Positions 4,601-23,922 of a stretch of DNA of 32,819 bases are shown piece after piece. The notes under the pieces were generated by a model. That model saw only the letters and a program-made list of their open reading frames with translations. It searched no databases and had not been told where the DNA came from. The number at the start of each line of letters is the position of its first letter. Position 1 is the first letter of the stretch. A program made the position numbers and the translations under genes. The stretch is from Acholeplasmataceae bacterium UBA6235. GTDB taxonomy: Bacteria; Bacillota_I; Bacilli_A; Acholeplasmatales; UBA5453. Location of the stretch: contig DJWH01000042.1 of the NCBI GenBank assembly GCA_002441525.1, positions 1 through 32,819 of the forward strand. The letters are read 5' to 3'.

Positions 4601-4684
4601 ACGAATGCGCTTATGTGCATTATAATTAGGATTATAAACAATGTGTGATAAAATGAGTAAAAACAAGAGAGGACTTTATAAAAA

Positions 4685-6928: not shown

Positions 6929-6955
6929 AAAAGTGCGGAAATTTTCCGCACTTTT
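6929..6955. terminator. Bidirectional terminator after the ABC operon
   Basis: A perfect 13-bp inverted repeat, AAAAGTGCGGAAA / TTTCCGCACTTTT, is almost loopless, with T runs on both strands. It ends the transporter operon and probably also transcripts arriving from the minus-strand membrane-protein gene. Confidence 0.85.
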
Positions 6956-7040
6956 GTTCGTTTAGGATATATCAACAGTCAGGCAAAGCGTTATTGCATA
7001 AATCCTAATCATATTGTAAGCAAACCCTCATTAAATGTAT

Positions 7041-7066
7041 TCTCATATCAAATAAAGACTCTAAAT
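7041..7066 (-). repeat. Third copy of the GAGTCTT motif; imperfect direct repeat of the sigma-gene leader
   Basis: Plus-strand TCTCATATCAAATAAAGACT plus CTAAA matches the sigma-gene leader (TCTCATATAATAAGACTCTA at 9459-9478) except for two small insertions. It lies 10 bases beyond the stop of the membrane-protein gene, so the two-gene sigma unit is flanked by direct repeats. No minus-strand gene follows it, so it may be a relic of a lost downstream member or a scar of unit mobility. Confidence 0.55.
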
Positions 7067-7075
7067 GCAATGTTC

Positions 7076-8935
7076 TCATTTAATATATGTGATGTAGTTA
7101 TCGTGAATTAGTCGATTGGTGTCATTTATATTTCTTACACCGTTGCCATCATTTAAATCATATTGATATATTGCAACTACTCGATAAGTACCATTGGCTG
7201 TCACTGTAAATGAGATATCGCCAGTAATGATACCTTCACCATTTGCAGGATTTAGTGTATAGCCTGAATCTTTAAACTCTAACAGCGTGTCGTTAAGATA
7301 CAGTTCAAATCCAACTAATATCAATAAATTATCCCCATCTTCAATTGAAAAGAAGGTATAAAGGGTATTGGATAATGCTACTGCACTTGTAAAGGTGACG
7401 GTTGGTGCTATTTTCTCTAAAGTCTTGAATGTGTATTCAAAAGTCATTGTTCTGAAACCTTGATTATCTTCTAAATCATATTGATATTCAATGACTAATC
7501 GATAATCAGTGTTAGATAGCAAATTACTTATATTTTTAACGAGCCCGTTTTGACTGATTATTTGATCTGTACCTTTAAATATCTGAGTCGTTAATATACT
7601 ACCATTATCCATCGTGTCCGTAATAGAAATTTCAAAGTCCATGGTTTCCTGAGACACATCGAGTGATACCAAATCTGCGGTTGGATTTGGTCTAAGACCT
7701 GTTTTGAATACTTCCTCTACTGTGTCCGTGACAACGACGTTTTGACCATTCTCGATGATGGTATAATCATAAGTCAATCGAACTAGATAATCTGTATTCG
7801 ATTTTAATTGATCAAAAGTTTGATCTACTAAATCTAATGTAGCAGATTCTTTTACGACTGTGCCATTTTCCAATAATTCTATTTTCATAATCTCGCCATT
7901 GTATTGATCCATAGAATTCACTTTAAAATCCACTTTTTCATAGTTGGATTCAATGTCTACAAGATCAAAACCTTTTTGGGTTTCAACAGTATCTTGATGA
8001 AGAATGAATGCGCGTTTGCCATTGCCATCCAAAATATCAAATGTACCAACGATGGCATATTCATAGGTTTGTCCCATACGAAGATTACTATAAGGAATGA
8101 CATTTCTGCCTAGTGTTAACTTGGTAATTTCGACAATTCTTGTGCCGTCAAATAGGTATAAGTTTAAACCAGTGTTGATGTCTATTAATAGCGCTGGATC
8201 AAGAGCTACGAATGAAATCCCAAAATTGGTTGTTTCAACAACAGTAGACATATTTTCAATGCTCGGAACATCTTCATGTAGTACACCGATTTGTATGGTC
8301 TTATCCGCTTCAAATCTAGCATTTTTAATGGAGGTATCCTGAACATATTTAATCGCGTCAATGGTGACTGATTGAATGCCTGATGTATCTTGAACATTAA
8401 ATCTAATGATAATTTGTTCAGAGTTAGAGCCATCTTGGAATTCGAATGTTTGATATAAACGCCCATTTAAAGTGAATGACAAGATTTCATAGAAATTAGG
8501 ATTACTAATCTTAACTGTAATCAAGATGGTTTCTGATTTACTCGCATAATAACTGATACCTTCAGCCATTTCAACTCCAATCTCGTCTTCAATTTGGTCG
8601 ATCATTTCACTTTCCATGTTGGTGAAAGGCGCATTGTATGATAGTGAAATCATGTCTGACAATGCTCTCGCTTCCATGCCTTGATACACAGGGGTATTTA
8701 AAAAATTGATGTAAGTAACACTAGAGAATACCACAATCAAAGCGAACGATAAAACACCTGACAATGAAATAATGGTTGCTTTTCGCGTACCAAACATTTT
8801 TTTGAATAAATTCTTTTTCACTGGCTTATTAAGCGTTTTTTCAATACCAACGCTGTTTTTAATATCGTCCTTTTTTTCTGGTTCAACATCGATGCTATTC
8901 AATACGGCATCCTTCAATATTTTAGTCTCTTTCAT
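7076..8935 (-). CDS. Single-pass membrane protein; putative anti-sigma/sensor with Fn3-like ectodomain
   Basis: 619 residues in three parts: a charged cytoplasmic tail (1-52), one membrane helix (about 53-78), and a ~540-residue outside region. The ectodomain starts with PVYQGM (82-87), followed by a module (about 135-225: LSFTLNG, YQTFEFQDGSNSE, SGIQS, TIDAIKY, IGVLHE). That module is nearly repeated in the N-terminus of the giant lipoprotein encoded upstream. About four Fn3-like repeats follow, with the same LLSNTDYRL and YDLNDGNG endings. ATG 8935 overlaps the sigma-factor stop by 4 bases (ATGA), and GAGGTG lies 5 bases before it. Its position and topology are those of a transmembrane anti-sigma factor that releases sigma on an outside signal, like RsgI-type proteins. 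The cytoplasmic tail is short and I recognise no anti-sigma domain, so that role is inference. No cysteine was noticed. It could instead be a sigma-regulated surface protein. Confidence 0.65.
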   Translation of the reverse strand: MKETKILKDAVLNSIDVEPEKKDDIKNSVGIEKTLNKPVKKNLFKKMFGTRKATIISLSGVLSFALIVVFSSVTYINFLNTPVYQGMEARALSDMISLSYNAPFTNMESEMIDQIEDEIGVEMAEGISYYASKSETILITVKISNPNFYEILSFTLNGRLYQTFEFQDGSNSEQIIIRFNVQDTSGIQSVTIDAIKYVQDTSIKNARFEADKTIQIGVLHEDVPSIENMSTVVETTNFGISFVALDPALLIDINTGLNLYLFDGTRIVEITKLTLGRNVIPYSNLRMGQTYEYAIVGTFDILDGNGKRAFILHQDTVETQKGFDLVDIESNYEKVDFKVNSMDQYNGEIMKIELLENGTVVKESATLDLVDQTFDQLKSNTDYLVRLTYDYTIIENGQNVVVTDTVEEVFKTGLRPNPTADLVSLDVSQETMDFEISITDTMDNGSILTTQIFKGTDQIISQNGLVKNISNLLSNTDYRLVIEYQYDLEDNQGFRTMTFEYTFKTLEKIAPTVTFTSAVALSNTLYTFFSIEDGDNLLILVGFELYLNDTLLEFKDSGYTLNPANGEGIITGDISFTVTANGTYRVVAIYQYDLNDGNGVRNINDTNRLIHDNYITYIK

Positions 8936-9450
8936 CCTTTCACCTCGTTTACAATCAATTTTAATGTAGGTAATGCTGCTTTATAGACTTTGGTTACGTG
9001 CTTAACATCTTTTTCCAATAACGCTGCGATATCTTTGTAAGAGAAATCAAAAATCGCTCGATATAAAATGACTTGCCTCATTTCATCAGAAAAGTGAGCC
9101 TTTAAAAGTTCATCTATTCTATCCAACTGTTCATTTTTGCTGGGTATATATTGCATGACCTCTTCGCTTTTAGACACTTTTTTGTGCTTTGCTTGATCTC
9201 GCATTGCATAGGTTAATGCTGTGTTTCTCGCTATCTGAATAATCCAAAATTTAAAACTGCAATTTTTAAATGTATCTATGCTCTTGTAAATTTTCATAAA
9301 TACCTCTTGTAAGACTTCTTCAGTCTCTTGAACAGTTCCTACAACTTGATAAATGATGTAATATAACAATTTATGATACATTTCATATAACTGATCGAAT
9401 GCAGATTCATCCTTCAATATTACCCTTTGAATTAATTGTTCATTTGTCAT
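8932..9450 (-). CDS. ECF-type RNA polymerase sigma factor
   Basis: 172 residues. Region 2 is clear: AFDQLYEMYHKLLYYII, then EEVLQEVFMKIYKSIDTF and FKFWIIQIARNTALTY, the part that binds the core enzyme and the -10 element. A spacer leads to region 4 (about 115-165: RQVILYRAIFDFSYKDIAALL, then VTKVYKAALPTLK), a helix-turn-helix for the -35 element. Length and the lack of regions 1 and 3 fit the extracytoplasmic-function group. GAGAGGG lies 5 bases before the ATG. It is the first gene of a two-gene unit coupled by an ATGA overlap to the membrane protein. The same motif precedes this gene and the giant lipoprotein gene, suggesting that it controls itself and that gene. The regulon is inferred. 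Confidence 0.88.
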   Translation of the reverse strand: MTNEQLIQRVILKDESAFDQLYEMYHKLLYYIIYQVVGTVQETEEVLQEVFMKIYKSIDTFKNCSFKFWIIQIARNTALTYAMRDQAKHKKVSKSEEVMQYIPSKNEQLDRIDELLKAHFSDEMRQVILYRAIFDFSYKDIAALLEKDVKHVTKVYKAALPTLKLIVNEVKG

Positions 9451-9458
9451 AATTTCCC

Positions 9459-9482
9459 TCTCATATAATAAGACTCTAAAAA
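9459..9482 (-). promoter_or_regulatory. Shared GAGTCTTAT motif in the sigma-gene leader
   Basis: The minus strand reads TTTTTAGAGTCTTATTATAT followed by GAGAGGG, so the motif lies immediately before the ribosome site. It matches the giant-gene leader at 13 of 14 positions in TTTT(A/C)GAGTCTTAT. AGTC could serve as an ECF-type -10 core with the start just before the ribosome site. I see no AAC-type -35 at the usual spacing, so promoter identity is unproven. Confidence 0.5.
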
Positions 9483-9510
9483 TTTATTTTTTTTATTGAA
9501 AATTAGAATT

Positions 9511-9536
9511 GGGCACCATTTTTTCGTATGGTGCCC
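9511..9536 (-). terminator. Hairpin between giant lipoprotein gene and sigma gene (weak terminator or attenuator)
   Basis: A perfect 9-bp stem, GGGCACCAT / ATGGTGCCC, with an 8-base loop, lies 8 bases after the giant gene's stop. On the minus strand it is followed by AATTCTAATTTTC rather than a clean T run, so termination may be partial and some transcripts may continue into the sigma gene. Confidence 0.55.
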
Positions 9537-9543
9537 CATAATT

Positions 9544-12500
9544 CTATTTTAAACTTGGATTTCCAATGTCATCGATAGGGTTTTCAAAATCCCAAATTGA
9601 TGAATCAAAACGAGTAGACATGATGGCGATAATTTCGCTGATTGTCTTGGTTTGTGATTTAGAATCATAAACTGTTGTGTAAGATTCTGGTTGATAGTTG
9701 CTGATGCTATAGAAGTTTTTAACAAAACCACCATTTTCAACTTTGACATAACTATAAACATTCGTGAATGTAGGGTTATTGTAATTATATCCACCACTAA
9801 TACCTACAGAGTATGTATTTGTAACGGTTCCTATTGCAAAAGCATTCATGGTTACTGTACCATCTGTTTCCCCATATAAGCCCCCAGAGTAATTGGAACT
9901 AGAGTTTATACTCATATTGCTGTAAACATTTAGAATATTTGAATTGTAATCTTGTCCAATTATACCTCCTACATAGTATTTTCCAACAATTGTAGCAACA
10001 ACTGATACATTTGATAATGTATTTCTATTTGCTGTACCTGTTAATCCACCTAAATAGTCAACGCCTTGAATATTTGTAGAAATTTGGATGTCGGTAAATT
10101 TATTGTATCCTTGGGAAGCTGCTGATAAACCACCAACATAATTAAAACCTTTGAGTTGCGATTGTATGGTAATATTAGAGAATTTGTTATATGAATTAAC
10201 ATATCCAACTAACCCCCCCACAAAAGAGTTAGATGTTTTTGACTCAACAGTTACATCCAAATCAACTAAGTTAATATTGTTATAGTTGTCCATGTGTCCT
10301 ACTAAACCACCAATTCTGACATCGCCATTTGTCTTGTTATTTACTGTAACATTTCCGTTTAGGGCTATGTTAGAGAATGTACTAACATCAGCAAATCCAG
10401 CTAACCCACCTGCATAAACACTGTAGCTGTTACCAGAGAATGTGTTCAGGGTTGCGATGATGTTAAAGTTATCCAATGTTAGATTTGTAATGGTAGAATA
10501 ATAAACTCTTCCGAAAAGACCTAAATACATATTTTCATCTTCATAAGTTCTCACTATATTAAGGTTGGATATATTATACCCATTACCATCCAATATACCT
10601 TTAAAGTTTTGAATTGGTGTCCACTCAAATCCAATTAAATCGATATCATTTGTTAACACATATCGATATCCTGATTGGATATTTTGAAGTTCTTGCGCGG
10701 TTGAGATTGGTGTAATACTTTCATTGCTTAGTACTGAGTAAAAAACATCTCCAATCGATACTACACGGTCTCTAGAAGTGATTCTGGAATTTGAATAGTT
10801 AAATTTGGTTACATTAACAGAATCATAATAACCCCAATCATTGCTGTAATAACCTGTTGTTAAGTTAAATCTAACAATAGTTTTATTCTCGTTAATCTGC
10901 AATGATGTATTATAGATCGAGTTGGACCCATAGTAACGAGTGTTGTAGTCAATTCTATTGATATCGTAACCTGTTGGGTTGTAAAACTCTACTTCCACAG
11001 TATAAGTCTCGTAAGCAGCATTGAAAGTTAATGGTTGATTGTTCTCATCAAACAATCTAACATTGGTGACATAAATTGTACCGTTGATAAAGGTGTTAAC
11101 TTGATGATTAGCTATTGGGCTGATGTAGAATCTAACACCATTCTTTGTTCCCATCAATTGTTCAATCGTGATTAAGGTATCGCCTCCAGTGAATTTATCA
11201 TCTACCGGTACATCAACTCTAATCTGCGTATCAGATATATAATCCACTGCATAATAATTGCCATTAATACGTGCCTCATCAATCACGATACCTTGTGGGT
11301 TGGTTATGTTTATTTCAAAATACAATACCTCTCCAACCATGATAGCACCTGTATTTAATATGACAGTGCTGTCGATTGAGAACTCAGGATTGGTATACAT
11401 TGCTTGAGAAATTTGGAAAGTTTGTACACCATTTCTATCGTTCTTATCATATTCATAAGTAGCAACCACGTTATAAGGCGTAAACGGCAATAAATCCATG
11501 AATTCTACAGTATCCGTTTCAACAGTCTTCACTAGTGTTTGACCTTGGAATAATTGAATTTGAACCAATTGTCCGATATTGTTCACATCAGACTTAACTG
11601 CGTTAAATACGATTGAATTGGTTGTGATAACAATATTTTGGAAGGATGCTGTTGGTGTAATTTTTTGTTCAGTTCTAGGATAAGCGAAAGAGGAAGTTAT
11701 CATTTCTCCTAGTTGATTATTCAAGTCATAAGTAATAACCATCTTAATCTCATATTGGGTGTTTGAATAAAGACCCGTGTATACCAAAACTTCGTTTGAA
11801 CTGATGGTGGTTACTTTGATGCCATCGAGGTAAAGTTCGAAATCAATATGAACAACTGTGTCATCGACGTCATTCAAAGTATATGAGAATTCAATACCAT
11901 CACTGGTTTGTTTACTGATATTAACTGAACCTGTAGGGATGGTTTTTGTAGCAGTTTTAAAACTATGTTTCGAAGCTAAAACGTTCGATCCAAAACCATC
12001 ACCAAAATCATAAATATAGTTGGTAATAATGGTGTATCTTGTGTCTGAATATAGCCCAGTAAAGACATATTCACCTGTTGACCAAGTTTGAACGATTTGA
12101 TTGTTTTCATCGATTAGCTGAATAGAGTCTATGTAACTATTTTCTACCGTAGATAGGATGTCTAAATCAAACGAAACACTTTCATTTGTTACTATAACAT
12201 CGGTATAATTGACCACTGGTACATTTGGCATATCTTGTGTTGAAACTTCCTTTTCGTATACGACAGTTTGTGGTCCATTTCCATCTAAGTAATCGAATGT
12301 ATACATCACCTTAACAACGAAAGTTGTACTGTATCTGAGTCCTTCAAATTCGTATGTTTGAGATGATTCTTTCGTTTCTTTGAGGACGCCATTTTGATAA
12401 AGTTCAACCGAATCAATCGTAGCAATTTGAGTTGGATCAATCAAATCAATATTAAAGGACACTTGTTCTGTCGTTGATTCAACTTGGACAAGTGAAATAA

Positions 12501-15500
12501 TTGGCGATTGTTTAAAGAATGGGTATTCACGGCCAAAACTCCAAACATCTTGATCCCATACCGATTTCATGGTTGCTAGAACTTCGGCTTTGTTGCTAGA
12601 GTTTATATCAAATGCATTTACTGGGTATCGACTTATGCTATGAACTACTGTTAATGATGTCCCATTTATAGTCTTTACTTGTCCAAATACATTAGAAATA
12701 TTACTTTCTGGATTATATCCCACCAGCGAACCGGCACCTTCAGTAGAATTGTTTATTGCATTCATAGTGCCTTTGGAGTAAGCATCTTGTAACGTTGAAC
12801 TATATAGATATCCCACCAAACCACCAGCATAGCCATAATTCGTTGATTTAAACTGAACATTGGTGTATGCATTTTGTATATTGGAATAGCTTGCTTGTCC
12901 GAATAATCCACCAACATAGTTTTTGGATTCAACGGATCCTTGGGTACTAACATTATTGGCACGTGTGTATTCGATGTGTCCTGCTAGTAATCCAGTTATT
13001 GAGTTACCAGTGGTTACGTTATTCATGGTTAAATCACCACTGACATGAACGTTTTCAATCAACGAATAGCTTAAAATTTGTCCAGCCAATCCACCAACAT
13101 AAGTATAATATCCGGAGTTACCAGTAACCGTTGCGTAAATCTCTACATTATCTAGTATAAGGTTTTTCACAGTTGAGTTAGTAAGTGTTGAGAACAAGCC
13201 TAAATATACATTGGTTTCATTGTAGGATCTAGTGATCTTAAGGTTAGATATTGTGTAATGATTGCCGTCTAAAATACCCGAGAAGGATTTCGGTTGCCAA
13301 TTTATACCAGCCAAGTCGATGTCATTCATCAATCGATAATGGTTACCACTTTGCATGTTTTGTAAATCACTAACTGTTCTTATTTCGATTGGTGTTGTGT
13401 TTGTAACAACTGAGAAATATTCAATCATACCACTGACGTTTTTAACACGATTAAACACTTGGTCGTTAGAATATATAAATTGTGTAATGTTGGTGCTTCG
13501 ATGATTGCTGCTTCTTACGTAACTTTGAATCGTGATTTGCGTGTTATCTTCATTCACAACAAATTGATTCGCATAATATGTTCTACTACCGTTTTCATAA
13601 ACTGTTATTTGATTAATAGTATACCCTGTTGGATTATAAAGATTAATAACCATCAAGTAGTTCGTTGAATATGCTATACCAAATTCAAACGGTGACCCAT
13701 TTAGATTTGTCAATTTGAAATCAGTGATTCTAATATCTCCGTTTATGAACTTCGATACTGCATTATTATCTAGTATGTTATAAGTGTACAGAATGCCATT
13801 ATAAGTACCATAAACAGCTTCTACTTTGAGTTCCGTATCACCAACACCCAACGTTTCATCGATGGCGACATTCACTTTAATTGAGTCAGTGTTTTGGGTA
13901 CTTACAGCGTATTTAACACCATTAATTTTGACTTCTTGAATTAAAATATTGTTTGGGTTTTCAATACCAATGTTGAATACGAGATAATCTCCTATGATTA
14001 CTGCTTCAGTATTCATTAGATCGGTAGAAATCACTGAGAAGGCCGGTGCTGTCGTGAAATCATATGTGTAAATACCTGTTTTATTACCTGTTAGATCGTT
14101 TAGATTATACACATAGGTGACTTTAATCCTATAATTAGTGTCTGGTAATAAATTCGTGATTTCAAAATCCGTCACTGTTGTAAATGTATTTTTCACAACA
14201 CTATCTTCTATGAATTCTACTTTTGTAATTTGACCAATATTAAATGGATCTGATAATTTCGGTCTAAATACCACTGAATCCTTCGAGATATTTAAAGTTG
14301 GCATGTTTACAGTTGGCATTGTTGGCATGGATGTACTGTTGCCTGTTGAGTAGGTGTCGACACGAATGCCAAAACCGTCATTCAAATCAAACTGATATTC
14401 AACCACCATATTGTAGTATTTATTCGAATATAGTCCACTAAATTTCAAAACTTGACTGTTATCAATGGTTTGAATTTTCTTACCTGTCCAATCGTATAAG
14501 TGAACAACCTTGATCTGACCCAATTCTTCAGGATCATTTTCAGTAAAATTTAAAGTCATCGATTCATGGGTCGTGTATGCACTTAACCAATCAATTCTAG
14601 GATAGGTTTTCGCATTGGTCTTTACTTGTTTTTCTTTGACAATTTCGGTTGGTCCAAAACTATCTAGGTAATCAAATTCATAAGTGACTCGTATCACATA
14701 GAAATGATTTGATAACAATTCATTGAAACTTAGATTATCTGCTGTAGTTGTAGATATCAATGTACCATCCAGTTCGAATAATTCAACTTTCGTGATTTCA
14801 CCAATGTTGTTTCCATCGATTTCACTGACTTGGAAATCGATGCTTGTTGTAGTCATACTGACTTGATCAATAGAAATTTCAGGTGAATTTTCATTATCTA
14901 GCGTTCTAAATGCTTGTTTAACCAGTACAGTTTGTGCACCAAAACCATCTTGATAGTCATAGACATATTCTATAACCAATTCATAGTCTGTACTATACTT
15001 CAAGTTATCGAAGACTAATTGGTCCAACGCTTCAATCGTTCTATATAATTGTCCTGCTTTATAAATATAAATATTATTGATGGTACCTACATTGTCCTTA
15101 TCGACTTCTCTTAATTCAAATGTGACTCCGTAAATGCTTGGTGTTACATCTAAGATTTCGATCCATGGATTTTGTTTTAGACTGAATTGAGCCGCTGAAA
15201 CATACCAATGCAATTTATCCCAAAGATTCATCTTTTCTGGAATATCGCTTGTGTTTACTTTGGTGAAATCATTCATTCCACCAGTATAGGTTGAATATGT
15301 ATTGCTGAATCTATTGTTAGCATCATTAGAATAGAGCGGTTGTACAGTATAACCTAATTTGTCATTTACATCTACAATCACGTTTGTGAGATTACTCGAG
15401 TATAAATAGCCAATACTTGCTTGTACCCACGATTGCTCATGAGACATTGTGCCTGTGACATAAACATTCGTTAGACTCAATGTACCACCGTGTGCGATTA

Positions 15501-18500
15501 AATTAGCCGCGTGTGTGTTTTTTGAAATGATATCTGTACTTGCGTAAACATCACTAATATCACTATTGTAGGACAAGCCTATCAAACCACCAGCATAACC
15601 TGCTGCAGTGATGGAACCCGAAACAGATAAGTGATTGACAGTTACACGATCGGATGAACCACTCAATAGTCCCACATAATTCGTGCCATTGGTAATATTA
15701 TCGACTTCAATGATACCTGAAATTTGAACATTCTCAATGGTACTGTTGTTAATATAACCTGCCAAAAGACCTCCATAAACGCTAAATTGACTACTTTGTG
15801 AAGTGCTAATCAACAATAAATTGAAGTCTTTAATCGTTAAATTCTTAATAATCGCACCTTCGACACGTTCAAATAAACCAGCGTACATGGTTTCATCTGA
15901 TGCGGTCTTAATGTAGATTAAGTTTTGAATAGAATATCCATTTCCATCTAATACACCATAGAAGTTATTTATAGGTGTCCAATTGAAACCTTGTAAATCA
16001 ATATCATTCGCCAATTGATAGTATTTTCCAGATTCCATATTTTGTAGTTCAGTTGGTGTCGTGATCATAATTGCTTGGTCATTGTTGATGATTGGCAGGG
16101 TTGCCCATTGGTTATAAACATTTTTGGTTTGTTCACCAACATAGATGTTGCTATAAACTATGGATTGAATTGTGACTTGCAGTCTCTCTGAACGATTCGT
16201 CACATATGGAATGATGATTCTTGTTTTGTCTTCATTCATGGTGATTTGATTCGCATAGAAACCATCATAATTGGTATTGATGTAGACTTGTTTAACATCA
16301 TATTTGGATGGGTTATATACTTCTAAGACAATATTGAAAGGTATGCCTTGCAAGATGTATTCCATCGATGACATATTTGTTGAATAGAATTCTGTACTGA
16401 TCACATAGAATTCACCATTAATCATCGTGTTAAATGTGTTATTTTCAAGCAATACAAACGTGTGCATACGATTTTCATAAAGTCCTTGTACGCTTTCAAT
16501 TGTAAATGTCTTATCACCAACACCCATTTCAGTGACTATTGGTACATAAACCAAGAATCGTTGTGCGTTGCTACTAGCGACAGGATACCATGTACCATTG
16601 ATTTGAACTTGTGTGAAATCAACGAGTAGATTGTTATCCATATTGACTTGTAAAGTTAAACGATCCCCTGTAACGATGGCACTTTGGTTCAATATAGTTA
16701 CACCTGTGAATGCCACTGTTGGGGTTGTTCTAAATGGCATATTGAAATGGATTGCTTGTTCACCATAACCATCCCCTAAATCATAAGTTACTTTAATGAT
16801 TAACTGGTATAGAGTGTTCGGTAATAAGTCTCCAAATTTTCTTAATGTTAGATCAGATAATGTATTTACCACGGTTCCTTGTTCGTCCGTGATATAAATT
16901 GAATCCACTTGGCCATAATTAAATTCATCCAGATACGTGAAGTCAAATGTCAGATGCGTGTCAAAAACATCACCTAATTGAATAACCACTTCTGGTGTAT
17001 TCTCTGCCGGCAGGGTTGTGAATTCAAATGTATTAGTTACCACTTGAATATTATCACTGCCATAGCTGTATGTATAAGATACTTTAACTGTATAAGTTGT
17101 GTTATACATTAACCCCTCAATACGAGCTGTTTTATTAACTAGCAATTCTTTTTCTAAAACATCACCTTCAAATATCTGAACCAATGTTTGCGTATTAGAT
17201 TGATTAAAGTTCGTTGTATAGATGTCAAAAGAAACATCGGTCTTGCCTACGGTTAGGCTTGATATACGGATGTGTGGTTTCCATTGAATTTGTGGGTATG
17301 TACCCGAGAAATCCCAAATATTGAGATTCCAATTTTCAGACATAATGGTATTGATTTCAGATAAAGTTGTTTTGATTGCCCCATTATAATCATCATTTGT
17401 ATTGTACACACCAGTCTTGGTACTGTTGGAGTAATCTGCAATTAGTGTGCCATTTGTGTAGGTTCCAGCATTGAATGCATATTGCATTTCATTGTTCCAA
17501 CCGCTTAGAATCAGGCCAGCTTGACTATAGTTTTGTGTAGCAATTCGTCCTGAATAATAAGCGTTACTTAAGGATGAATTATAGGCATATCCTAGTAAAC
17601 CACCAACATTACCAGTCCCCTCAAAATTCATAGAGGATCCTGCATTGGATGTTTGAGAATACGGATGCATACCTGCAACACCACCGGCATATTCAAAGTT
17701 ACCAGTTACTTTACCTTGTGTGTATACTTGGTCAATGAGGGTATTATTTGCGTAACCTACAAGTCCGCCAACATAGCCTTTGTTGGATACTAACGTGGTA
17801 TTGCTATAAATGAGTCTCATCTCAGTACCATCGGTTCTACCAACCAAACCACCCATGTATATGTGGCCGTTGGTTGTGTTGGTTATACTGATTTCACCAT
17901 CCACTGTCACGTTAGAGATGTTTGAACTACCGATATATGATGCTAGTAATCCAACTTCAGCTCCAAAAGAGTTGCTTGTCGTTGAGTTATTGAGGGTCAT
18001 GATGATGAGAGCGTTAGAAATATTAATGTTCTTCACAATCGATGAGTGAATATTTCTAAATAAGCCCAAATAGATATCGGTATCTACGTCGGTTCTGACA
18101 AAACGAAGATCATAAATAGTAAATCCATTACCATCTAATGTAATATAGCTCACATCTTTTGGTATCCATGTAATATTTGTTAGATAAATATCATTAGCTA
18201 ATTTATATGATTTACCTGATTGAACGCTTGCTAAATCGTTTGCGTTATAAATGAGCGTTGGCTCTAAATCAATCACTGCAGTCACACGATCACTATACCC
18301 AGATACATTCTTTTGTTTACTACTTTGATCATCAGAGTAGCTAAATTCTTGAAGTGTAAAGGTATAGGTGGTGTTGTAAGTAGTCGAAATACGTTCAATA
18401 AGAACGGTTTGATTCGTATCATCGATATTGAATTGTGTATAAGTGCCACTATAAGGGTATCCTTCAACACGAACATAATCGATATCATACTGTGATGGGT

Positions 18501-21500
18501 TATTGAAGACAATCTTGATAAAGAATTTTTGTTGATAGGAGACAACATCCAATGGGTTATCGTTTTCGTCGACGATTTCAATCGATTCAACTAAAATATC
18601 CCCATTCACGAATGCTGAACCAACATTATTTTCTTCTGTTAAGAAAACCCTCAGATCAGAACCACGATAACCTTCAATTCTTTCTACCACAAATGGGGTT
18701 ACCCCACCGGTATAAGATGCGTCTAAGAAGAATTCTACACGGATTTCATCGAGTGTGGTGGTGTCTGAAACATCATAGAATTCACCATTGATCATAACGC
18801 GTGTAAATACAATTTCAGATGGATTATCTACAACAATTTCTAGGACAATCTTATCACCTTCGGTAATTCTGCCTGTATTAATGATTTGTGTTGAAATTAA
18901 ATCGAGATAAGGCAATGTATAGGCTTCTGCATTTAAGCTAACCTCATGTAGACCTTTGCCATCATTTAAATCATATTGGTAGCTTACAACCACTTGATAA
19001 GTCATATCTGGTAGTAAATCCGTGAATGTCCCCTGAAGTGTGGCTAATGTTTGAACCAACACATCGTTTTGATACAATTTGACGTCAATTAAAGAACCCA
19101 AAAGATATGGATCTATTTCGGTGAGTTCATATTGAATGGTGCTTGCTGTAAAGACAAGGTTTTCAAAAGTGATGGCAGGTGTTGGGTATGTATTTGTACG
19201 AATGAATGTCTCAAATACACCAGATTGAATGCCTTTGCCATCATTTAAATTGTATTGGTAATATACCTTGATTTGATAATTGGTATTCGATAACAAGTCT
19301 GCGAAAGTAACATTGACGTCACTCAATTGGTTTGATGCAACCACAGCGTTATCATGTATGATTTCAATTAAATCTAATGACACCAATTGATTTTCATTTG
19401 TCGTTTTAACGGTAAATTGTACCGATGTAAATCGATTTTGTAATGCATCTAAATAAATCTCAGGTGTGCCTCTCGCAATGGTTGTTACAGTTTGATTGTG
19501 TTGATAGATACGAATCCCTTGTCCATCCAGTAAATCATATTCATAATTAATCACTAGTTTATACGTATTGTTCGATAGTAATCCTGTGAAAATACGGTTA
19601 GTTCCATCATTTCTAGTTTCGATTAATTGATTACCTAAATAGAGCTCAACAGATTCTAAATGACCGACTTGATCGATATCTGTGACTGTGTAGTCATAGG
19701 TAAATCCGATGTCTGTAAGATTGGTGATGTTTGTTTGAATTTGAGGTGTTAGTTTAGCCTTAGTTTGAACGGTTTCATTCACTTCTAAGTAGCGAACACC
19801 TACGCCATCATTGAGGTCATATTCATAAACTACTTGAATCGTATAATAACTGTTGGTATATAAGTCTTCAAATAATTTGACATTAAAGTTCGACAACTCA
19901 GAAACCACTGTAATGCCTGATAATAATCGGATTGCAAATAAACTACCCACTTGGTCTAGATCTTCAATCGTATAATCGAATGTGATTGTATGATAATCAC
20001 CTAAAGATTGGATGATGTTAACCACAGGATTAAGCTTACTTTGGGTTTGTACTTCCTTTGAAACAGTATAGGTTCTTTCGCCTAAACCATCATTTAGGTC
20101 ATAAACATAAACCAATCGAATCGTATAAATATTGTTCGACAATAAATGGTTGAATGTCTTTTGGTTGAGGTTCTCTAGCGTTTGAACTTTGATGCCATAC
20201 AAATACAACTCAATGGCTTTGAGCGTGCTGACATGATCCATATCTACGGTCGAATAGTCAAATGAAATACTATCCACTGTACTTTGAGTTGAATGGATTT
20301 CACCTTGTGGCATGGCCTTAGGTAACGTTCTAAATGATTTTTGAACGACGATACTTCTCATACCAAGACCATCATTTAAATCGAAACGATAGTCGATGGT
20401 GATATAGTATGTATTGTTTGACAAGAGTTGGTAGAATTCACGTTCATTTGCTGCATTGGTATCCACCACTTGTCCTTGAGATAATGTGATGCTGTGGATT
20501 GAACCTGCTTGATCTAAATCCTCGATAAATACAGCGTATGCAACCGCATCTTGGGTAATCATACTGATTTCAAAATCCATGGTTGGTTGTCGTTTGGTTG
20601 TTGTAAAGTCATGTTTAAAGACAACCGCTTGTGAGCCTTTGCCATCGTTTAAGTCATAACGATAAGTAACTCGAATTTGATAATTCGTGTTTGGTTGTAG
20701 TTCGTTGAAGGATCGATAAGACAAATTCGTTAGCTCAGAGACGATCATCTCACCGAGGTATAAACGAATTGAGTCAATTTGACCAACCGCGTTTAAGTCA
20801 TTCACAAATAAATCGAAGCTAACCGCTGAAGTCGATATGGAGGTTCTTACTATGGTAACTTTTGGCACTGCAGGACTTGTAACCACCACGACATCTTTAG
20901 TAATCACTTGGTCGCCTAAACCATCATTCAAGTTATAACGATATTCATAACGAATGATATACTCTGTATTAGAGTTTAATGCCGTAAACACTTTATTGTT
21001 AAGATTGCCCACTTGCACTAACTGAACACCTTTGTATAGGTACGCCTGTGTAATCACCAGTGTATTGGTTGTATCTGAAGTAACAAAATTGTAGTTGATG
21101 GTTGTATCGGTTGTTTCGGTCAAAAGTGTCACTTCTGGTGTTGGCATCACACCAGTTCTAATAGAATGACTGGATTCGAGGACTTGATTGCCTTGACCAT
21201 CTAGTAAGTCGTACTGGTAAGATATCACCAATCGATATTCACTATTCGATAATAAAGAAGTGAAAATATCGGTTGTAGTGTTCTTCGTTTCGATTAATTC
21301 AGCACCTTTAAATAGTTGAACGCTTGCCAATGCCCCAGCAAGATCTTTGTCTTGAATATCTGTGGTATATTGGATAGCTGATTGATTGCTGTTGTAGCTG
21401 ACATTGATCGATGGCAGTTGTTTGGTAGTTTTAAAATCGACGGTTTTTGTAATAACCTTAGAACCCAAACCATCATTAAGATCATAACGGTATAAGACCA

Positions 21501-23571
21501 TCAATTGATAGTTTTGATTTGATTTTAATAAGGTAAGCTCTCTTAAGCTTAAATTGGTAAGATTGCGCACAATCGTGCCATTTTCATATAATCGAATCGC
21601 ATCAATTTGACCAGTCGAATTGATGTCGCTTATGATAATTTCAAATTGAACTGAAATGTGATCAACAAAAATGGTATTAAGAACAAAATCTGGTGTGATT
21701 TTGGCTGTGATGAAATCATGATTAATCACTTTAGTTTGAATACCAAGTCCGTCATTTAAATCATACGTATATGTTAAACGTAATGTGTAATTTGTATTGG
21801 CTTTAAGCGTATTAAAAACACCAGTTGAAAGGCCGTTTTGGAACGCAATCAAAGTCGATTGTTGGTATATTCTTACAGAATCAATGTCTAGTACATTATC
21901 AACATCTAATGAGACTACAACATATTCTAATTGTGTTGAAGAAACCGTATAATCAATACCAACTTCTGGTGCTTGCTTTTCAAATGTTTTGAAGGTATGT
22001 TCTTGTACCAGTAATTTCATGCCATTACCATCGAACAGATTGTAAGAGATGGTCGTTCTAATGGTGTAGTTGCGATTAGATAGGAGGTTACCTAGTGCAA
22101 ATACCCCTGGATTCAATTCTCGAACAAAGTTTTCGCCATCATACAATGCTTGAGATATAGACATTACCGATTGATCAGGATCTATTAATGTTTGTGACCA
22201 AGTGTACCCTGTCTGTGTAACACTAAGTGTACTCATCGTAAATGTCGGTAATTGACGTGATAAAGTATTAAAAGTATAAGTTAAAACATCATTTGTATTT
22301 AATGCACCAAACGTATAGTGTACATGAATCACATATTCGCTGTTTGCATTCAAATCAATGAATTGTAAGACATCAAAAGCCGTTAAGCTTTCTTTAAGCT
22401 GATTATTTTGATAGAGATATACACCTTGAATGGCATATGGTAATTGGTTAATGCCTTCAATATCAAATTGTATGTGGTCATAACCAATCACTTCATCCAT
22501 GATTGATATCGCTGCTTCAGTTTGAATATATTCACTTGATAGTGTATGGACTGTAGGCCCATTGCCATTCAAAGCATCAAATCCAGCAGCAATGATATAT
22601 TGGTATTGACGATTTGGCATCAAACCATCAAATTGTACAACTTGGTTGCCTTCGACCAATGGTTTATGTTGAATCAATACGTCATTTTCAAATAAGAAAA
22701 TTCTCATTGGTGATATTTCCCATTGAATAAGGTCATTCTCATTCTTGGTGTTGATTGCTAATTGAATGCTTTCATGTGTTACAGATTGATTTGTGATATT
22801 TGCAGTCGGTAACACTTGGTGTGTTACGCCTAACTTAATGGTTTTTTCACCGGAGAAAATAACATCTTTGATGGTGTTGTTGTCAGCATCATCGATGTAT
22901 TTAATTTCATCGATTGTGAATGATTGAATGCCAGATTCTTGACCAGCTTTTACTTTTAGGATTAATTTTTCAGAATTAGATCCATCCTGGAATTCATAAT
23001 TTTGATATACTTGTCCATTGAGAGTAAAGCGCAAAATGACTAGCTTGTCTGGATTATATAAATTCACTGTAAGTAATACTTCTTCACCAGGATTAGCAAA
23101 AAAAGCAACATATTCTGTTGGGATAATTTCGATGATGTCGGAGATGTCAGTATTGAGAGCTACCTGAGTACGAGTTCGACTCGTTCTCTCTGGTGTCGAT
23201 TCAAAACTCATACCTTGATAAATCGGTATCGTTCTCGTAACACTTGTGGTTGTTTTTTCTTGCCAACGAGCAAATATAGTTGTGTTTACGTAAAACTGTG
23301 TTTCATCATAAACTCTACTACTGTTGACTGTTTCGCCCATATACCAACCCACAAAATCATATCCATCTCGTGGATTAATTTCTGGTAAATCGATGGTTTG
23401 TCCTGTTTGAATGGTTAAACCATCAATCACTTGATCTGTTCCTGTTACGAAACTGATGTTGATGTTTGTTTCACCTTGACCAGGTAGAAATTGGCAGGCA
23501 GCCAATACAGTAGATAGAATACCTATCAGTACCAAACCCATGAATCTCTTCAAAGAATGTTGTCTTTTCAT
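9544..23571 (-). CDS. Giant repeat lipoprotein: InlB B-repeat, ~23 Fn3-like repeats, four GLUG cassettes
   Basis: 4675 residues, uninterrupted. Signal peptide with lipobox L23-A-A-C26, so it is anchored by an N-terminal lipid. Order: InlB-type B-repeat (~38-105, ending GYDFVGWYMG and IFARWQ); a module shared with the downstream membrane protein (~115-345); 13 Fn3-like repeats of ~92 residues (~350-1553), each ending like LLSNTNYQIRV and YDLNDGLG; then cassettes 1-4 (about 1554-2099, 2280-2801, 3175-3689, 4062-4675), separated by 2, 4 and 4 more Fn3-like repeats. Each cassette ends in GLUG repeats (GYVGGLVGYANN type) opened by LQNMQSG and NDIDL. No C-terminal anchor; it ends within a GLUG block at NPSLK. 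No cysteine besides C26 was noticed. Start supported by AGGAGGA 5 bases upstream. Likely a long surface fibre for adhesion or carbohydrate binding; the ligand is unknown. It precedes the sigma/membrane-protein pair on the same strand, separated by a hairpin. Confidence 0.9.
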   Translation of the reverse strand: MKRQHSLKRFMGLVLIGILSTVLAACQFLPGQGETNINISFVTGTDQVIDGLTIQTGQTIDLPEINPRDGYDFVGWYMGETVNSSRVYDETQFYVNTTIFARWQEKTTTSVTRTIPIYQGMSFESTPERTSRTRTQVALNTDISDIIEIIPTEYVAFFANPGEEVLLTVNLYNPDKLVILRFTLNGQVYQNYEFQDGSNSEKLILKVKAGQESGIQSFTIDEIKYIDDADNNTIKDVIFSGEKTIKLGVTHQVLPTANITNQSVTHESIQLAINTKNENDLIQWEISPMRIFLFENDVLIQHKPLVEGNQVVQFDGLMPNRQYQYIIAAGFDALNGNGPTVHTLSSEYIQTEAAISIMDEVIGYDHIQFDIEGINQLPYAIQGVYLYQNNQLKESLTAFDVLQFIDLNANSEYVIHVHYTFGALNTNDVLTYTFNTLSRQLPTFTMSTLSVTQTGYTWSQTLIDPDQSVMSISQALYDGENFVRELNPGVFALGNLLSNRNYTIRTTISYNLFDGNGMKLLVQEHTFKTFEKQAPEVGIDYTVSSTQLEYVVVSLDVDNVLDIDSVRIYQQSTLIAFQNGLSTGVFNTLKANTNYTLRLTYTYDLNDGLGIQTKVINHDFITAKITPDFVLNTIFVDHISVQFEIIISDINSTGQIDAIRLYENGTIVRNLTNLSLRELTLLKSNQNYQLMVLYRYDLNDGLGSKVITKTVDFKTTKQLPSINVSYNSNQSAIQYTTDIQDKDLAGALASVQLFKGAELIETKNTTTDIFTSLLSNSEYRLVISYQYDLLDGQGNQVLESSHSIRTGVMPTPEVTLLTETTDTTINYNFVTSDTTNTLVITQAYLYKGVQLVQVGNLNNKVFTALNSNTEYIIRYEYRYNLNDGLGDQVITKDVVVVTSPAVPKVTIVRTSISTSAVSFDLFVNDLNAVGQIDSIRLYLGEMIVSELTNLSYRSFNELQPNTNYQIRVTYRYDLNDGKGSQAVVFKHDFTTTKRQPTMDFEISMITQDAVAYAVFIEDLDQAGSIHSITLSQGQVVDTNAANEREFYQLLSNNTYYITIDYRFDLNDGLGMRSIVVQKSFRTLPKAMPQGEIHSTQSTVDSISFDYSTVDMDHVSTLKAIELYLYGIKVQTLENLNQKTFNHLLSNNIYTIRLVYVYDLNDGLGERTYTVSKEVQTQSKLNPVVNIIQSLGDYHTITFDYTIEDLDQVGSLFAIRLLSGITVVSELSNFNVKLFEDLYTNSYYTIQVVYEYDLNDGVGVRYLEVNETVQTKAKLTPQIQTNITNLTDIGFTYDYTVTDIDQVGHLESVELYLGNQLIETRNDGTNRIFTGLLSNNTYKLVINYEYDLLDGQGIRIYQHNQTVTTIARGTPEIYLDALQNRFTSVQFTVKTTNENQLVSLDLIEIIHDNAVVASNQLSDVNVTFADLLSNTNYQIKVYYQYNLNDGKGIQSGVFETFIRTNTYPTPAITFENLVFTASTIQYELTEIDPYLLGSLIDVKLYQNDVLVQTLATLQGTFTDLLPDMTYQVVVSYQYDLNDGKGLHEVSLNAEAYTLPYLDLISTQIINTGRITEGDKIVLEIVVDNPSEIVFTRVMINGEFYDVSDTTTLDEIRVEFFLDASYTGGVTPFVVERIEGYRGSDLRVFLTEENNVGSAFVNGDILVESIEIVDENDNPLDVVSYQQKFFIKIVFNNPSQYDIDYVRVEGYPYSGTYTQFNIDDTNQTVLIERISTTYNTTYTFTLQEFSYSDDQSSKQKNVSGYSDRVTAVIDLEPTLIYNANDLASVQSGKSYKLANDIYLTNITWIPKDVSYITLDGNGFTIYDLRFVRTDVDTDIYLGLFRNIHSSIVKNINISNALIIMTLNNSTTSNSFGAEVGLLASYIGSSNISNVTVDGEISITNTTNGHIYMGGLVGRTDGTEMRLIYSNTTLVSNKGYVGGLVGYANNTLIDQVYTQGKVTGNFEYAGGVAGMHPYSQTSNAGSSMNFEGTGNVGGLLGYAYNSSLSNAYYSGRIATQNYSQAGLILSGWNNEMQYAFNAGTYTNGTLIADYSNSTKTGVYNTNDDYNGAIKTTLSEINTIMSENWNLNIWDFSGTYPQIQWKPHIRISSLTVGKTDVSFDIYTTNFNQSNTQTLVQIFEGDVLEKELLVNKTARIEGLMYNTTYTVKVSYTYSYGSDNIQVVTNTFEFTTLPAENTPEVVIQLGDVFDTHLTFDFTYLDEFNYGQVDSIYITDEQGTVVNTLSDLTLRKFGDLLPNTLYQLIIKVTYDLGDGYGEQAIHFNMPFRTTPTVAFTGVTILNQSAIVTGDRLTLQVNMDNNLLVDFTQVQINGTWYPVASSNAQRFLVYVPIVTEMGVGDKTFTIESVQGLYENRMHTFVLLENNTFNTMINGEFYVISTEFYSTNMSSMEYILQGIPFNIVLEVYNPSKYDVKQVYINTNYDGFYANQITMNEDKTRIIIPYVTNRSERLQVTIQSIVYSNIYVGEQTKNVYNQWATLPIINNDQAIMITTPTELQNMESGKYYQLANDIDLQGFNWTPINNFYGVLDGNGYSIQNLIYIKTASDETMYAGLFERVEGAIIKNLTIKDFNLLLISTSQSSQFSVYGGLLAGYINNSTIENVQISGIIEVDNITNGTNYVGLLSGSSDRVTVNHLSVSGSITAAGYAGGLIGLSYNSDISDVYASTDIISKNTHAANLIAHGGTLSLTNVYVTGTMSHEQSWVQASIGYLYSSNLTNVIVDVNDKLGYTVQPLYSNDANNRFSNTYSTYTGGMNDFTKVNTSDIPEKMNLWDKLHWYVSAAQFSLKQNPWIEILDVTPSIYGVTFELREVDKDNVGTINNIYIYKAGQLYRTIEALDQLVFDNLKYSTDYELVIEYVYDYQDGFGAQTVLVKQAFRTLDNENSPEISIDQVSMTTTSIDFQVSEIDGNNIGEITKVELFELDGTLISTTTADNLSFNELLSNHFYVIRVTYEFDYLDSFGPTEIVKEKQVKTNAKTYPRIDWLSAYTTHESMTLNFTENDPEELGQIKVVHLYDWTGKKIQTIDNSQVLKFSGLYSNKYYNMVVEYQFDLNDGFGIRVDTYSTGNSTSMPTMPTVNMPTLNISKDSVVFRPKLSDPFNIGQITKVEFIEDSVVKNTFTTVTDFEITNLLPDTNYRIKVTYVYNLNDLTGNKTGIYTYDFTTAPAFSVISTDLMNTEAVIIGDYLVFNIGIENPNNILIQEVKINGVKYAVSTQNTDSIKVNVAIDETLGVGDTELKVEAVYGTYNGILYTYNILDNNAVSKFINGDIRITDFKLTNLNGSPFEFGIAYSTNYLMVINLYNPTGYTINQITVYENGSRTYYANQFVVNEDNTQITIQSYVRSSNHRSTNITQFIYSNDQVFNRVKNVSGMIEYFSVVTNTTPIEIRTVSDLQNMQSGNHYRLMNDIDLAGINWQPKSFSGILDGNHYTISNLKITRSYNETNVYLGLFSTLTNSTVKNLILDNVEIYATVTGNSGYYTYVGGLAGQILSYSLIENVHVSGDLTMNNVTTGNSITGLLAGHIEYTRANNVSTQGSVESKNYVGGLFGQASYSNIQNAYTNVQFKSTNYGYAGGLVGYLYSSTLQDAYSKGTMNAINNSTEGAGSLVGYNPESNISNVFGQVKTINGTSLTVVHSISRYPVNAFDINSSNKAEVLATMKSVWDQDVWSFGREYPFFKQSPIISLVQVESTTEQVSFNIDLIDPTQIATIDSVELYQNGVLKETKESSQTYEFEGLRYSTTFVVKVMYTFDYLDGNGPQTVVYEKEVSTQDMPNVPVVNYTDVIVTNESVSFDLDILSTVENSYIDSIQLIDENNQIVQTWSTGEYVFTGLYSDTRYTIITNYIYDFGDGFGSNVLASKHSFKTATKTIPTGSVNISKQTSDGIEFSYTLNDVDDTVVHIDFELYLDGIKVTTISSNEVLVYTGLYSNTQYEIKMVITYDLNNQLGEMITSSFAYPRTEQKITPTASFQNIVITTNSIVFNAVKSDVNNIGQLVQIQLFQGQTLVKTVETDTVEFMDLLPFTPYNVVATYEYDKNDRNGVQTFQISQAMYTNPEFSIDSTVILNTGAIMVGEVLYFEINITNPQGIVIDEARINGNYYAVDYISDTQIRVDVPVDDKFTGGDTLITIEQLMGTKNGVRFYISPIANHQVNTFINGTIYVTNVRLFDENNQPLTFNAAYETYTVEVEFYNPTGYDINRIDYNTRYYGSNSIYNTSLQINENKTIVRFNLTTGYYSNDWGYYDSVNVTKFNYSNSRITSRDRVVSIGDVFYSVLSNESITPISTAQELQNIQSGYRYVLTNDIDLIGFEWTPIQNFKGILDGNGYNISNLNIVRTYEDENMYLGLFGRVYYSTITNLTLDNFNIIATLNTFSGNSYSVYAGGLAGFADVSTFSNIALNGNVTVNNKTNGDVRIGGLVGHMDNYNNINLVDLDVTVESKTSNSFVGGLVGYVNSYNKFSNITIQSQLKGFNYVGGLSAASQGYNKFTDIQISTNIQGVDYLGGLTGTANRNTLSNVSVVATIVGKYYVGGIIGQDYNSNILNVYSNMSINSSSNYSGGLYGETDGTVTMNAFAIGTVTNTYSVGISGGYNYNNPTFTNVYSYVKVENGGFVKNFYSISNYQPESYTTVYDSKSQTKTISEIIAIMSTRFDSSIWDFENPIDDIGNPSLK
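9547..11386 (-). repeat. Cassette 4 of the giant protein (A module + GLUG block), C-terminal
   Basis: The A module carries NTGAIMVGEVLYFEINITNP and INGNYYAV, then NTFINGTIYVTNVRL. The GLUG block opens at about plus 10715 (ISTAQELQNIQSG, NDIDLIGFEWTPI, LDGNGY) and has many VGGLVG-type repeats. It is the longest of the four GLUG blocks, and the protein ends inside it. Confidence 0.8.
12504..14045 (-). repeat. Cassette 3 of the giant protein (A module + GLUG block)
   Basis: A module with MNTEAVIIGDYLVFNIGIEN and INGVKYAV, then KFINGDIRITDFKL and NVSG. The GLUG block opens with SDLQNMQSG and NDIDLAGINWQP near plus 13385 and closes with VWDQDVWSFGREYPFFKQSP. It is followed by four Fn3-like repeats. 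Confidence 0.8.
15166..16717 (-). repeat. Cassette 2 of the giant protein (A module + GLUG block)
   Basis: A module with LNQSAIVTGDRLTLQVNMDN and INGTWYPV, then TMINGEFYVIST. The GLUG block opens with TELQNMESG and NDIDLQGFNWTPI near plus 16050 and closes at FSLKQNP. It is followed by four Fn3-like repeats. Confidence 0.8.
17275..18912 (-). repeat. Cassette 1 of the giant protein (A module + GLUG block)
   Basis: A module with INTGRITEGDKIVLEIVVDN and INGEFYDV, then AFVNGDILVESIEIVDENDN and NVSG. The GLUG block opens with LASVQSG and NDIYLTNITW near plus 18255 and closes with IWDFSGTYPQIQWKP. It is followed by two Fn3-like repeats. Confidence 0.8.
18913..22525 (-). repeat. Tandem array of 13 Fn3-like repeats in the giant protein
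   Basis: Thirteen units of ~92 codons lie end to end. Each starts around a Pro-rich turn (LPT, APE, LTP) and ends LLSN(N/T)xYxIxVxYxYDLNDGxG followed by a strand and (F/V)xTxxK. DNA encoding the DLNDG part recurs almost unchanged (plus-strand CCATC then ATTTAAATCATA), and the same stretch occurs in the downstream membrane-protein gene at about 7148, so recombination between copies is plausible. Confidence 0.85.
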
Positions 23572-23602
23572 AAAAATCCTCCTGAAATATGCATTCCAAT
23601 AG

Positions 23603-23616
23603 ATAAGACTCGAAAA
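23603..23616 (-). promoter_or_regulatory. Shared GAGTCTTAT motif in the giant-gene leader
   Basis: The minus strand reads TTTTCGAGTCTTAT, about 35 bases before the ATG and 20 bases before AGGAGGA. It differs from the sigma-gene copy at one of 14 positions. Candidate site for the ECF sigma or another common regulator. Confidence 0.5.
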
Positions 23617-23660
23617 TGTCTTTAATTTTTATACTTTTAATAGAAAAGTTAAAATTTACT

Positions 23661-23709
23661 AAAGCGCTTTCGTCTATTTGATTATAACAAATACAAATGA
23701 AAATTGTAA
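23661..23709 (-). promoter_or_regulatory. Putative extended -10 promoter and palindromic operator of the giant gene
   Basis: The minus strand has TGTTATAAT (an extended -10; the TATAAT is plus 23681-23686) with a poor -35, TTACAA, 17 bp upstream (plus 23704-23709). The expected start near plus 23674 abuts a perfect 10-base palindrome AAAGCGCTTT (plus 23661-23670), well placed for a repressor. It only loosely resembles a CcpA cre site. The rest of the 351-base gap is AT-rich, with nothing else recognised apart from the shared motif and the helicase terminator. Confidence 0.45.
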
Positions 23710-23852
23710 TGTAATTTTAATTACATTTAAAACTTCAAATGTATGATTAATAAAAAGTAATATGACTTTTTCAAAAATCTTATACATCTTTCATTCTTAA
23801 TTATTTCTTTTTTCATTCTATATGTTTTCAATAATATTGATATGGCTCTGAG

Positions 23853-23881: not shown

Positions 23882-23922
23882 AATAATGTAACTTAAAATC
23901 TAAGTTGTGATTCGTATATCAA

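Follow-up and report, generated by a model that had tools for sequence, protein, structure and literature searches.

A recurrent trio of ECF sigma factor, membrane protein and giant lipoprotein in Acholeplasmatales, with a possible sensor built like the product it may control

The locus described here raises the question of why a membrane protein encoded next to a sigma factor should display, outside the cell, the same domains as a giant surface lipoprotein encoded by the neighbouring gene. The window, i.e. the whole stretch of DNA analysed, comprises 32,819 nucleotides and is contig C101 of the genome of Acholeplasmataceae bacterium UBA6235 (G000), a wall-less bacterium using the standard code; genetic code 4 was considered and dropped, since table 11 leaves each of the three genes open and code 4 would lengthen the sensor by just five residues. 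These genes, coding for the giant lipoprotein (the product), the sigma factor and the membrane protein (the putative sensor), all lie on the minus strand, at the positions given in a preliminary description of this DNA. The features of the locus are the following:

6928..23929, no strand: 17.0-kb unit, missing as a block in the same-species genome G159 (genome comparison)
7076..8935, minus strand: single-pass membrane protein of 619 aa, proposed anti-sigma sensor (BLASTP, AlphaFold2)
7136..8269, minus strand: sensor residues 223-600, four Fn3-like domains (AlphaFold2, structure and sequence matches)
8270..8689, minus strand: sensor residues 83-222, module common to the giant (BLASTP, AlphaFold2, module identities)
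8699..8782, minus strand: sensor residues 52-79, transmembrane helix (AlphaFold2)
8783..8935, minus strand: sensor residues 1-51, cytoplasmic tail, helices predicted at 2-14 and 19-28 with low block pLDDT (42-64)
8932..9450, minus strand: ECF sigma factor of 172 aa, regions 2 and 4 (Pfam, TIGR02937)
9468..9497, minus strand: promoter-like element 5' of the sigma gene, core TTTAGAGTCTTAT at 9468-9480 (motif scans)
9511..9536, minus strand: terminator-like hairpin between the giant and sigma genes
9544..23571, minus strand: giant lipoprotein of 4675 aa, with lipobox Cys26, List_Bact repeat 39-101, module and 24 Fn3-type domains
within 9544..23571, minus strand: four GLUG-type blocks of the giant, each with two weak module copies ahead (by eye; Pfam passes two GLUG stretches)
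22813..23226, minus strand: giant residues 116-253, membrane-proximal module common to the sensor (BLASTP, profile, module identities)
23603..23633, minus strand: promoter-like element 5' of the giant gene, core TTTCGAGTCTTAT at 23603-23615 (motif scans)
23661..23670, no strand: palindrome AAAGCGCTTT between both putative giant promoters, the window's only copy
23681..23710, minus strand: candidate second giant promoter, sigma70-like, ATTACA-18-TATAAT with TG ahead of the -10

The sigma and sensor genes overlap by 4 bases (ATGA, 8932-8935); the product gene is placed upstream of the sigma gene, as its own transcription unit behind the terminator-like hairpin. An Rfam scan of 6900-24100 gave zero matches at the gathering threshold.

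The ectodomain of the sensor and the N-terminal part of the giant are colinear, as the preliminary description had proposed: sensor residues 82-616 align with giant residues 116-622 over 540 columns, with 162 identical (30%) and 274 positive (51%) positions and a BLASTP E-value of 2e-63. The strings on which that proposal was based (YQGM, LSFTLNG/LRFTLNG, FEFQDGSNSE/YEFQDGSNSE, SGIQS and TIDAIKY/TIDEIKY) are all present, while IGV.H was slightly off, since the giant reads LGVTH. The homology extends beyond the module to the Fn3 domains behind it, whose order is unchanged, again as had been described. Over the core of the module, about 100 residues, the window sensor shares 48% identity with its own product, more than with any of the 22 other modules compared; identities with these were 30-36% with eight trio products, 22-43% with six orphan products and 28-42% with eight sensors of other loci. 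In most of the other eight trios the nearest module to the sensor is not that of its own product.

In the giant, a module-only profile finds one strong copy (residues 153-252, 115 bits), located after the lipobox and the List_Bact repeat, and eight weak, remote copies (1.1-7.7 bits), arranged in four pairs ahead of later blocks; with a Fn3-type profile, 24 copies score 11.8-82.8 bits and two more are marginal, and the GLUG repeats anticipated for this protein are recognised by PF07581 (E 1.2e-7), with two stretches passing. The AlphaFold2 model of the sensor, built on 45 sequences (mean pLDDT 85.6), displays the tail helices, the transmembrane (TM) segment, the module at 83-218 and four further beta domains. 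Within the predicted module, the strand PVYQGM is followed by a low-confidence loop, a helix and beta strands, and residues ~222-619 match Fn3 chains by structure and weakly by sequence. When the module alone was compared with known folds, the Foldseek and VIA-align lists were filled by Fn3/Ig chains and the module fold was unmatched. In sensors and products alike, the module stands soon after the TM segment or the lipobox.

The assignment of the sigma gene to the ECF group, already suggested in the preliminary description, holds: TIGR02937 scores 64 bits against a cut-off of 42.9, PF04542 has an E-value of 1.3e-14, PF08281 lies just below its cut-off (E 6.4e-5, 23 bits versus 25.7), and the protein consists of regions 2 and 4 only, in ~170 aa, as ECF factors do. 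Its best NCBIfam model is sigma70-ECF, over cut-off, and not the SigI type (among the best 25 of 77 models), and the model of a relative's sigma aligns to ECF sigma structures over both domains. The putative anti-sigma partner has a short tail (~50 residues) and a single TM segment (52-79, from AlphaFold2 and hydropathy), as in class II anti-sigma factors; the tail helices 2-14 and 19-28 are predicted with low confidence, at block pLDDT of 57-64.

CnrY, a metal-resistance regulator not known to have a product-like ectodomain, offers an anatomical comparison, since the window tail is likewise very short, with two predicted helices followed by one TM segment. The two helices of CnrY wrap the sigma factor, one on sigma4 and one on sigma2, according to the available part of PMC7406223. 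With its two short helices at low confidence, the modelled tail is consistent with a CnrY-like anatomy; no sequence match to CnrY was found, the sensor giving only fibronectin matches among PDB chains at E up to 0.1. Pfam returned zero matches for the tail and recognised no known anti-sigma domain in the sensor; the RsgI N-terminal domain is absent from it in Pfam at E up to 0.1, in a search whose HMMER filters can drop weak matches.

A model of sigma plus tail, built with the natural sequences of the related locus L046 as one chain, has a mean pLDDT of 77.9 and a pTM of 0.74, with the block of the second tail helix at pLDDT 86; it is a read-through fusion with a four-residue linker, assessed by its overall arrangement, and its alignment left out three tail-only rows, which were misaligned. 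By TM-score over the full-length ECF chains listed, its sigma2/sigma4 arrangement is closest to CnrH-CnrY (0.65), followed by SigW-RsiW (0.62); among the matches listed, AlgU-MucA comes first by E-value and several are tied by VIA-align Z. The nearest solved ECF arrangements, among these matches, are anti-sigma-bound, and the model is consistent with inhibition of sigma by the tail but does not prove it.

As for the release of sigma, an M50 site-2 protease (PF02163) was found over cut-off in 8 out of 8 genomes tested, with a partial match in the window's own genome (profile positions 1-125 of 221). Self-cleavage at an Asn-Pro site is known from RsgI proteins. A site of this kind was rejected for the sensor: the NP pair is common in the module, yet products have it too and several sensors lack it.

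The trio is not confined to the window. A search with a profile of seven sensors matched 17 of 160 Acholeplasmatales genomes, six of which contain nine full-length mimic sensors (one each in G000, G042 and G024, two each in G028, G048 and G149); these counts are lower bounds, because in several genomes just eight first-look candidates were scored. Each of the nine has an adjacent, co-directional ECF sigma gene, and a module lipoprotein adjoins the pair on the same strand, the lipobox of the L045 product being upstream of the called start. Eight of the trios, all except the window, are ordered sigma-sensor-product, and in these eight the membrane-protein gene is adjacent to, or overlaps, the sigma gene. 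A degenerate locus in G017 (L054) retains the sigma gene and a broken sensor, with no product, and G001 (L095) has an ECF gene directly beside a 114-aa membrane protein that matches profile positions 1-84 only (E 6.5e-5), corresponding to the tail-to-TM part of the sensor. In L046, a second, degenerate sigma-like ORF (7169-7618; 149 aa, E 0.002) was observed directly 5' of the sigma gene of the trio, behind a promoter-like element.

Conversely, module products were found in fetched stretches containing neither sensor nor sigma gene in G039 (4693 aa), G142 (3073 aa), G004, G007 and as a third copy in G149, and without a sensor, at a contig end, in G003. Outside the order, a wider profile, which also holds Fn3, matches 29 of 392 genomes in a phylum sample and 62 of 395 in a class sample; the sets overlap and some matches are to Fn3 only. 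Out of 20 stretches opened from these samples, 16 have a module protein, resembling in all cases a lipoprotein or a signal-peptide protein, two have Fn3 matches only and two nothing; none of the 16 module loci has a mimic sensor beside it, and in two of them (L194, L195) an ECF gene lies at most four genes away, accompanied by a membrane protein without the module. By its own terms, the preliminary description would be refuted by giants regularly found without the sigma pair and vice versa. The first half came out against it, since module products, giants included, often occur in this way (the five orphan cases lacking a sigma gene, and the 16 loci of the wider samples without a mimic sensor); the second half did not, all nine full mimic sensors having both sigma and product adjoining.

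In phylogenetic trees of sensors and products, the eight sensors of the other family form one group apart from the products, with support of 84/85 and 86/96 in two trees (not starred). Sensor and product branching agree as far as resolved: each contains the pairs (G048b,G149b) and (G028b,G042), G024 standing close to the second pair, and each separates the three a-type from the five type-b loci, although among sensors this split rests on a starred type-b group. Sensor and product distances are correlated (Mantel r 0.76, a value reached in 0 of 5000 permutations), which co-inheritance in one operon alone would also give. In these trios, sensor and product may have arisen by a duplication before the trios diverged and then travelled together. 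The tree places the window sensor with products, but we are unsure of this position: a single clade of all sensors is compatible with the AU test (p 0.152), as are window sensor and product as sisters (p 0.293), in a tree without the long-branched O_G007 row, which the other tree includes.

A protein search of metagenomes with the sensor profile retrieved 102 proteins, the window's own included, 101 of which have the module; only the 7995 best candidates were scored, and some of the 102 are near-copies of each other. By their N-terminus they were divided into 42 with the tail type of the window sensor, itself included (tail-1), 22 with a second type (tail-2, with a pattern like IDDEIIDRNTxKR), 30 lipoproteins and eight others, after seven had been moved by eye out of the tail-1 list of the script; 42 tailed rows were aligned. 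Candidate sensors in metagenomes would thus be about 64. The tail-2 type, which we take to be clostridial-looking, includes proteins ending in LRR_5, M23 peptidase or Fn3 domains, and that they are anti-sigma factors is a guess; none was found in the loci opened from the phylum and class samples, in viral contigs or in plasmids. Four of them (P0077, P0086, P0093, P0099) are membrane proteins combining the module with an M23 peptidase domain (PF01551). P0017 and P0042 have a sensor-like ectodomain and a TM segment with no cytoplasmic tail, and might be products or uncoupled decoys.

The trio behaves as an island. In G159, a 99% complete genome of the same species, the two flanks (2150-6927 and 23930-26671, with 96% and 91% identity) follow each other without a break, 43 bp standing between them in place of the 17-kb trio; the whole trio has therefore been gained or lost as a block, in agreement with the self-contained unit previously proposed. 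No integrase was found among the ORFs of the block, and a scan of its ends revealed no clear target-site duplication, the shared words of at least 9 bases amounting to one 11-base match. An IS200/IS605-type TnpB gene is present at 28447-29559, a few kb from the block; related genomes have several copies of the stretch around this gene, close to which synteny with G159 is also lost. On the other side, the window stretch 873-2149, with a gene for a Fic-type protein (961-2103), is unmatched at the G159 locus.

The two transcription units share an upstream motif, GAGTCTTAT, which occurs twice in the window, 17 bases 5' of the sigma start codon and 31 bases 5' of the giant start codon. Exact copies of TTTNGAGTCTTAT are three in the own genome and seven across seven congeneric genomes, the own included; just the two island sites of these seven 13-mers lie immediately upstream of a start codon, four being inside ORFs and one being followed by no ORF of 50 aa in the next 200 nt. 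The hexamer TCTTAT was found within 80 nt upstream in 6 out of 6 chosen cases (window sigma, window giant, the sigma-first trios L044, L046 and L092 and the degenerate L054) versus 8 out of 176 others, where the motif had been picked after seeing the sequences, the L046 copy precedes the small sigma-like ORF, and type-b operons are counted among the others; when 3000 sextets were drawn at random, none had a 6-mer of such rarity in common. The longer pattern GGRAAWWW-N14-17-TCTTAT fits L044, L046, L092 and L054, neither of the two window sites, and 0 of the 176 others. Taken alone, the pairwise similarity of the sequences upstream of the window sigma and giant genes is weak, its score being equalled in 39 of 1000 shuffles and by 143 of 3000 background pairs, and the motif with one mismatch is not specific, with 22 genome sites versus 14 for a reversed control and 9 of the 11 loci opened lying inside genes. 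In the five type-b trios the first gene codes for another lipoprotein and is preceded, by eye, by a sigma70-type promoter, with no TCTTAT there.

In its layout, the window motif resembles ECF promoters in general, and the likeness includes their -10 part. The GGAACTT element is reported for RpoE in the available part of PMC8103513. The giant gene may have in addition a sigma70-like promoter, although the five such sites in its upstream region compare with a mean of 4.2 by chance, and the palindrome AAAGCGCTTT (23661-23670), which resembles LacI/CcpA-family operators, hints at sugar control of the giant; with such a promoter and operator-like palindrome, the sigma would tune, and not start, expression. 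An imperfect third copy of the motif, TTTAGAGTCTTTA, followed by TTTGATATGAGA, is found at 7053-7065, just 3' of the sensor stop; it is much like the sigma upstream and is perhaps a duplication relic. Beside two type-b trios, genes for LRR_5 and DUF898 multi-pass membrane proteins (L047:3565-6726, L091:13147-16146) are preceded, by eye, by an ECF-like element, TGAATAAA...GTGTCT, and might possibly be a further target of that sigma. One of the eight background TCTTAT hits precedes the G048 LRR_5/DUF898 gene near a type-b trio, the G149 relative being less exact by eye.

In our judgement it is fairly probable that the locus is an autoregulated, self-contained ECF sigma/anti-sigma switch, whose sensor ectodomain copies its product. 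The short two-helix cytoplasmic tail would hold the sigma factor, and the outside part would be a shortened copy of the giant N-terminus, with the same place beside the membrane that this has in the giant. If the contact of the shared module changed, either with a common ligand or with neighbouring giant molecules, the sensor would be cleaved, first in a site-1 event and later by the M50 site-2 protease, and the freed sigma would transcribe its own operon and the giant gene from the matching promoters. Layout, shared module, recurrence, island behaviour, shared motif and M50 protease are present in the sequences; from these we infer the binding of the tail to sigma, the proteolysis of the sensor, the use of the promoters and, above all, the signal, which for sensor and giant would be the same ligand or the assembly of the coat. 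The same trio in relatives suggests that the cell senses its coat, or the target of the coat, with a copy of the coat. The interpretation advanced in the preliminary description is thus retained in part, for the ECF sigma, the product-like ectodomain, the anti-sigma-like tail and the behaviour as a unit; recurrence in the order and the promoter-like motif ahead of both transcription units support it as well, and it is weakened by products often occurring without sigma.

The general logic is known from RsgI, while sigma type and anti-sigma domain differ in the window. SigI is not classed as an ECF sigma, and the same CBM types found in these sensors occur on cellulosomal enzymes. As proposed for the window, the system combines a sigma factor with a single-pass anti-sigma that senses what the regulated extracellular machinery meets; RsgI, however, is equipped with a particular N-terminal domain and, in most cases, with a periplasmic domain that cleaves itself, whereas the window ectodomain copies, domain by domain, one large surface lipoprotein that is encoded by a neighbouring gene and putatively regulated by the sigma. 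In C. thermocellum, the extracellular domain senses the substrate of the regulated machinery and sigma is released proteolytically, according to the available part of PMC12203970. SigW/RsiW offers another likeness, with a sigma-anti-sigma operon, likely autoregulation and likely site-2 proteolysis; to our knowledge, RsiW-type ectodomains do not resemble regulated products. Around 55% of the ECFs with predicted targets are autoregulated in one analysis (PMC8103513, in its available part). Surface lipoproteins of the Fn3/GLUG and BspA types share with the giant the lipobox, the Fn3 arrays and the GLUG or LRR_5 repeats; the window differs in that its membrane-proximal module is also present in a candidate membrane anti-sigma. 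Among the matches listed in the open-licence literature, which mostly leaves out subscription papers, no account of such a layout was found.

If the shared module were a generic membrane-proximal stalk, with the signal read elsewhere (by the outer Fn3 domains or as membrane stress), the locus would be an ordinary ECF switch having its neighbour by chance. This explanation is possible but doubtful: it accounts for the position of the module soon after the TM segment or lipobox in sensors and products, for the common module lipoproteins without sensors and for most sensors not being nearest to their own product, but it sits poorly with a module product adjoining all nine full sensors, with a homology to the giant that continues through the Fn3 domains in unchanged order, and with the window sensor being nearest to its own product. 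Somewhat less likely still is that the sensor acts as a decoy that copies the coat protein, at the same height in the membrane and packing side by side with it via the shared module, so that sigma release would report coat density or quality.

That the membrane protein is another structural component of the surface, co-expressed with the giant, with the tail as a mere cytoplasmic anchor and sigma controlled otherwise, appears very improbable: the 4-base coupling of its gene to sigma, the similar tail in 42 proteins and the tail-to-TM protein directly beside an ECF gene in G001 argue against it, although P0017 and P0042 lack a tail and Pfam recognises no known anti-sigma domain in the sensor. 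The 17-kb block might also be mainly a mobile or variable surface locus, subject to phase or strain variation, with incidental regulation; absence from G159, with the 43-bp replacement, and the nearby multi-copy TnpB gene point in this direction, whereas the lack of an integrase ORF and of a clear target-site duplication, together with the recurrence of the trio in another family, make it quite unlikely, and it would be compatible with the switch reading.

If the sensor copies its product on purpose, as the switch reading proposes, the trigger of the sensor would tell what the surface protein binds, and the same question of the trigger applies to about 64 candidate sensors in the family. If the decoy reading were true, surface coats would be regulated by self-recognition and not by an outside ligand, and the association of the module with the tail-2 type (22 proteins) would turn it into a widespread principle that has arisen at least twice. 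Mollicutes have been described with strongly reduced gene regulation, and the available part of a promoter study on this group contains zero mentions of ECF, extracytoplasmic or anti-sigma (PMC5138195); a strain-variable island with its own sigma, sensor and giant surface protein contrasts with such a reduction. The window's own genome contains three further ECF genes (C87, C115, C2), none with a mimic sensor beside it. The one on C87 (L038:2603-5750) is followed by a small single-TM protein whose tail is, by eye, like that of the sensor, and the locus continues with lipoprotein/secreted genes and, again by eye, a subtilisin-like ORF.
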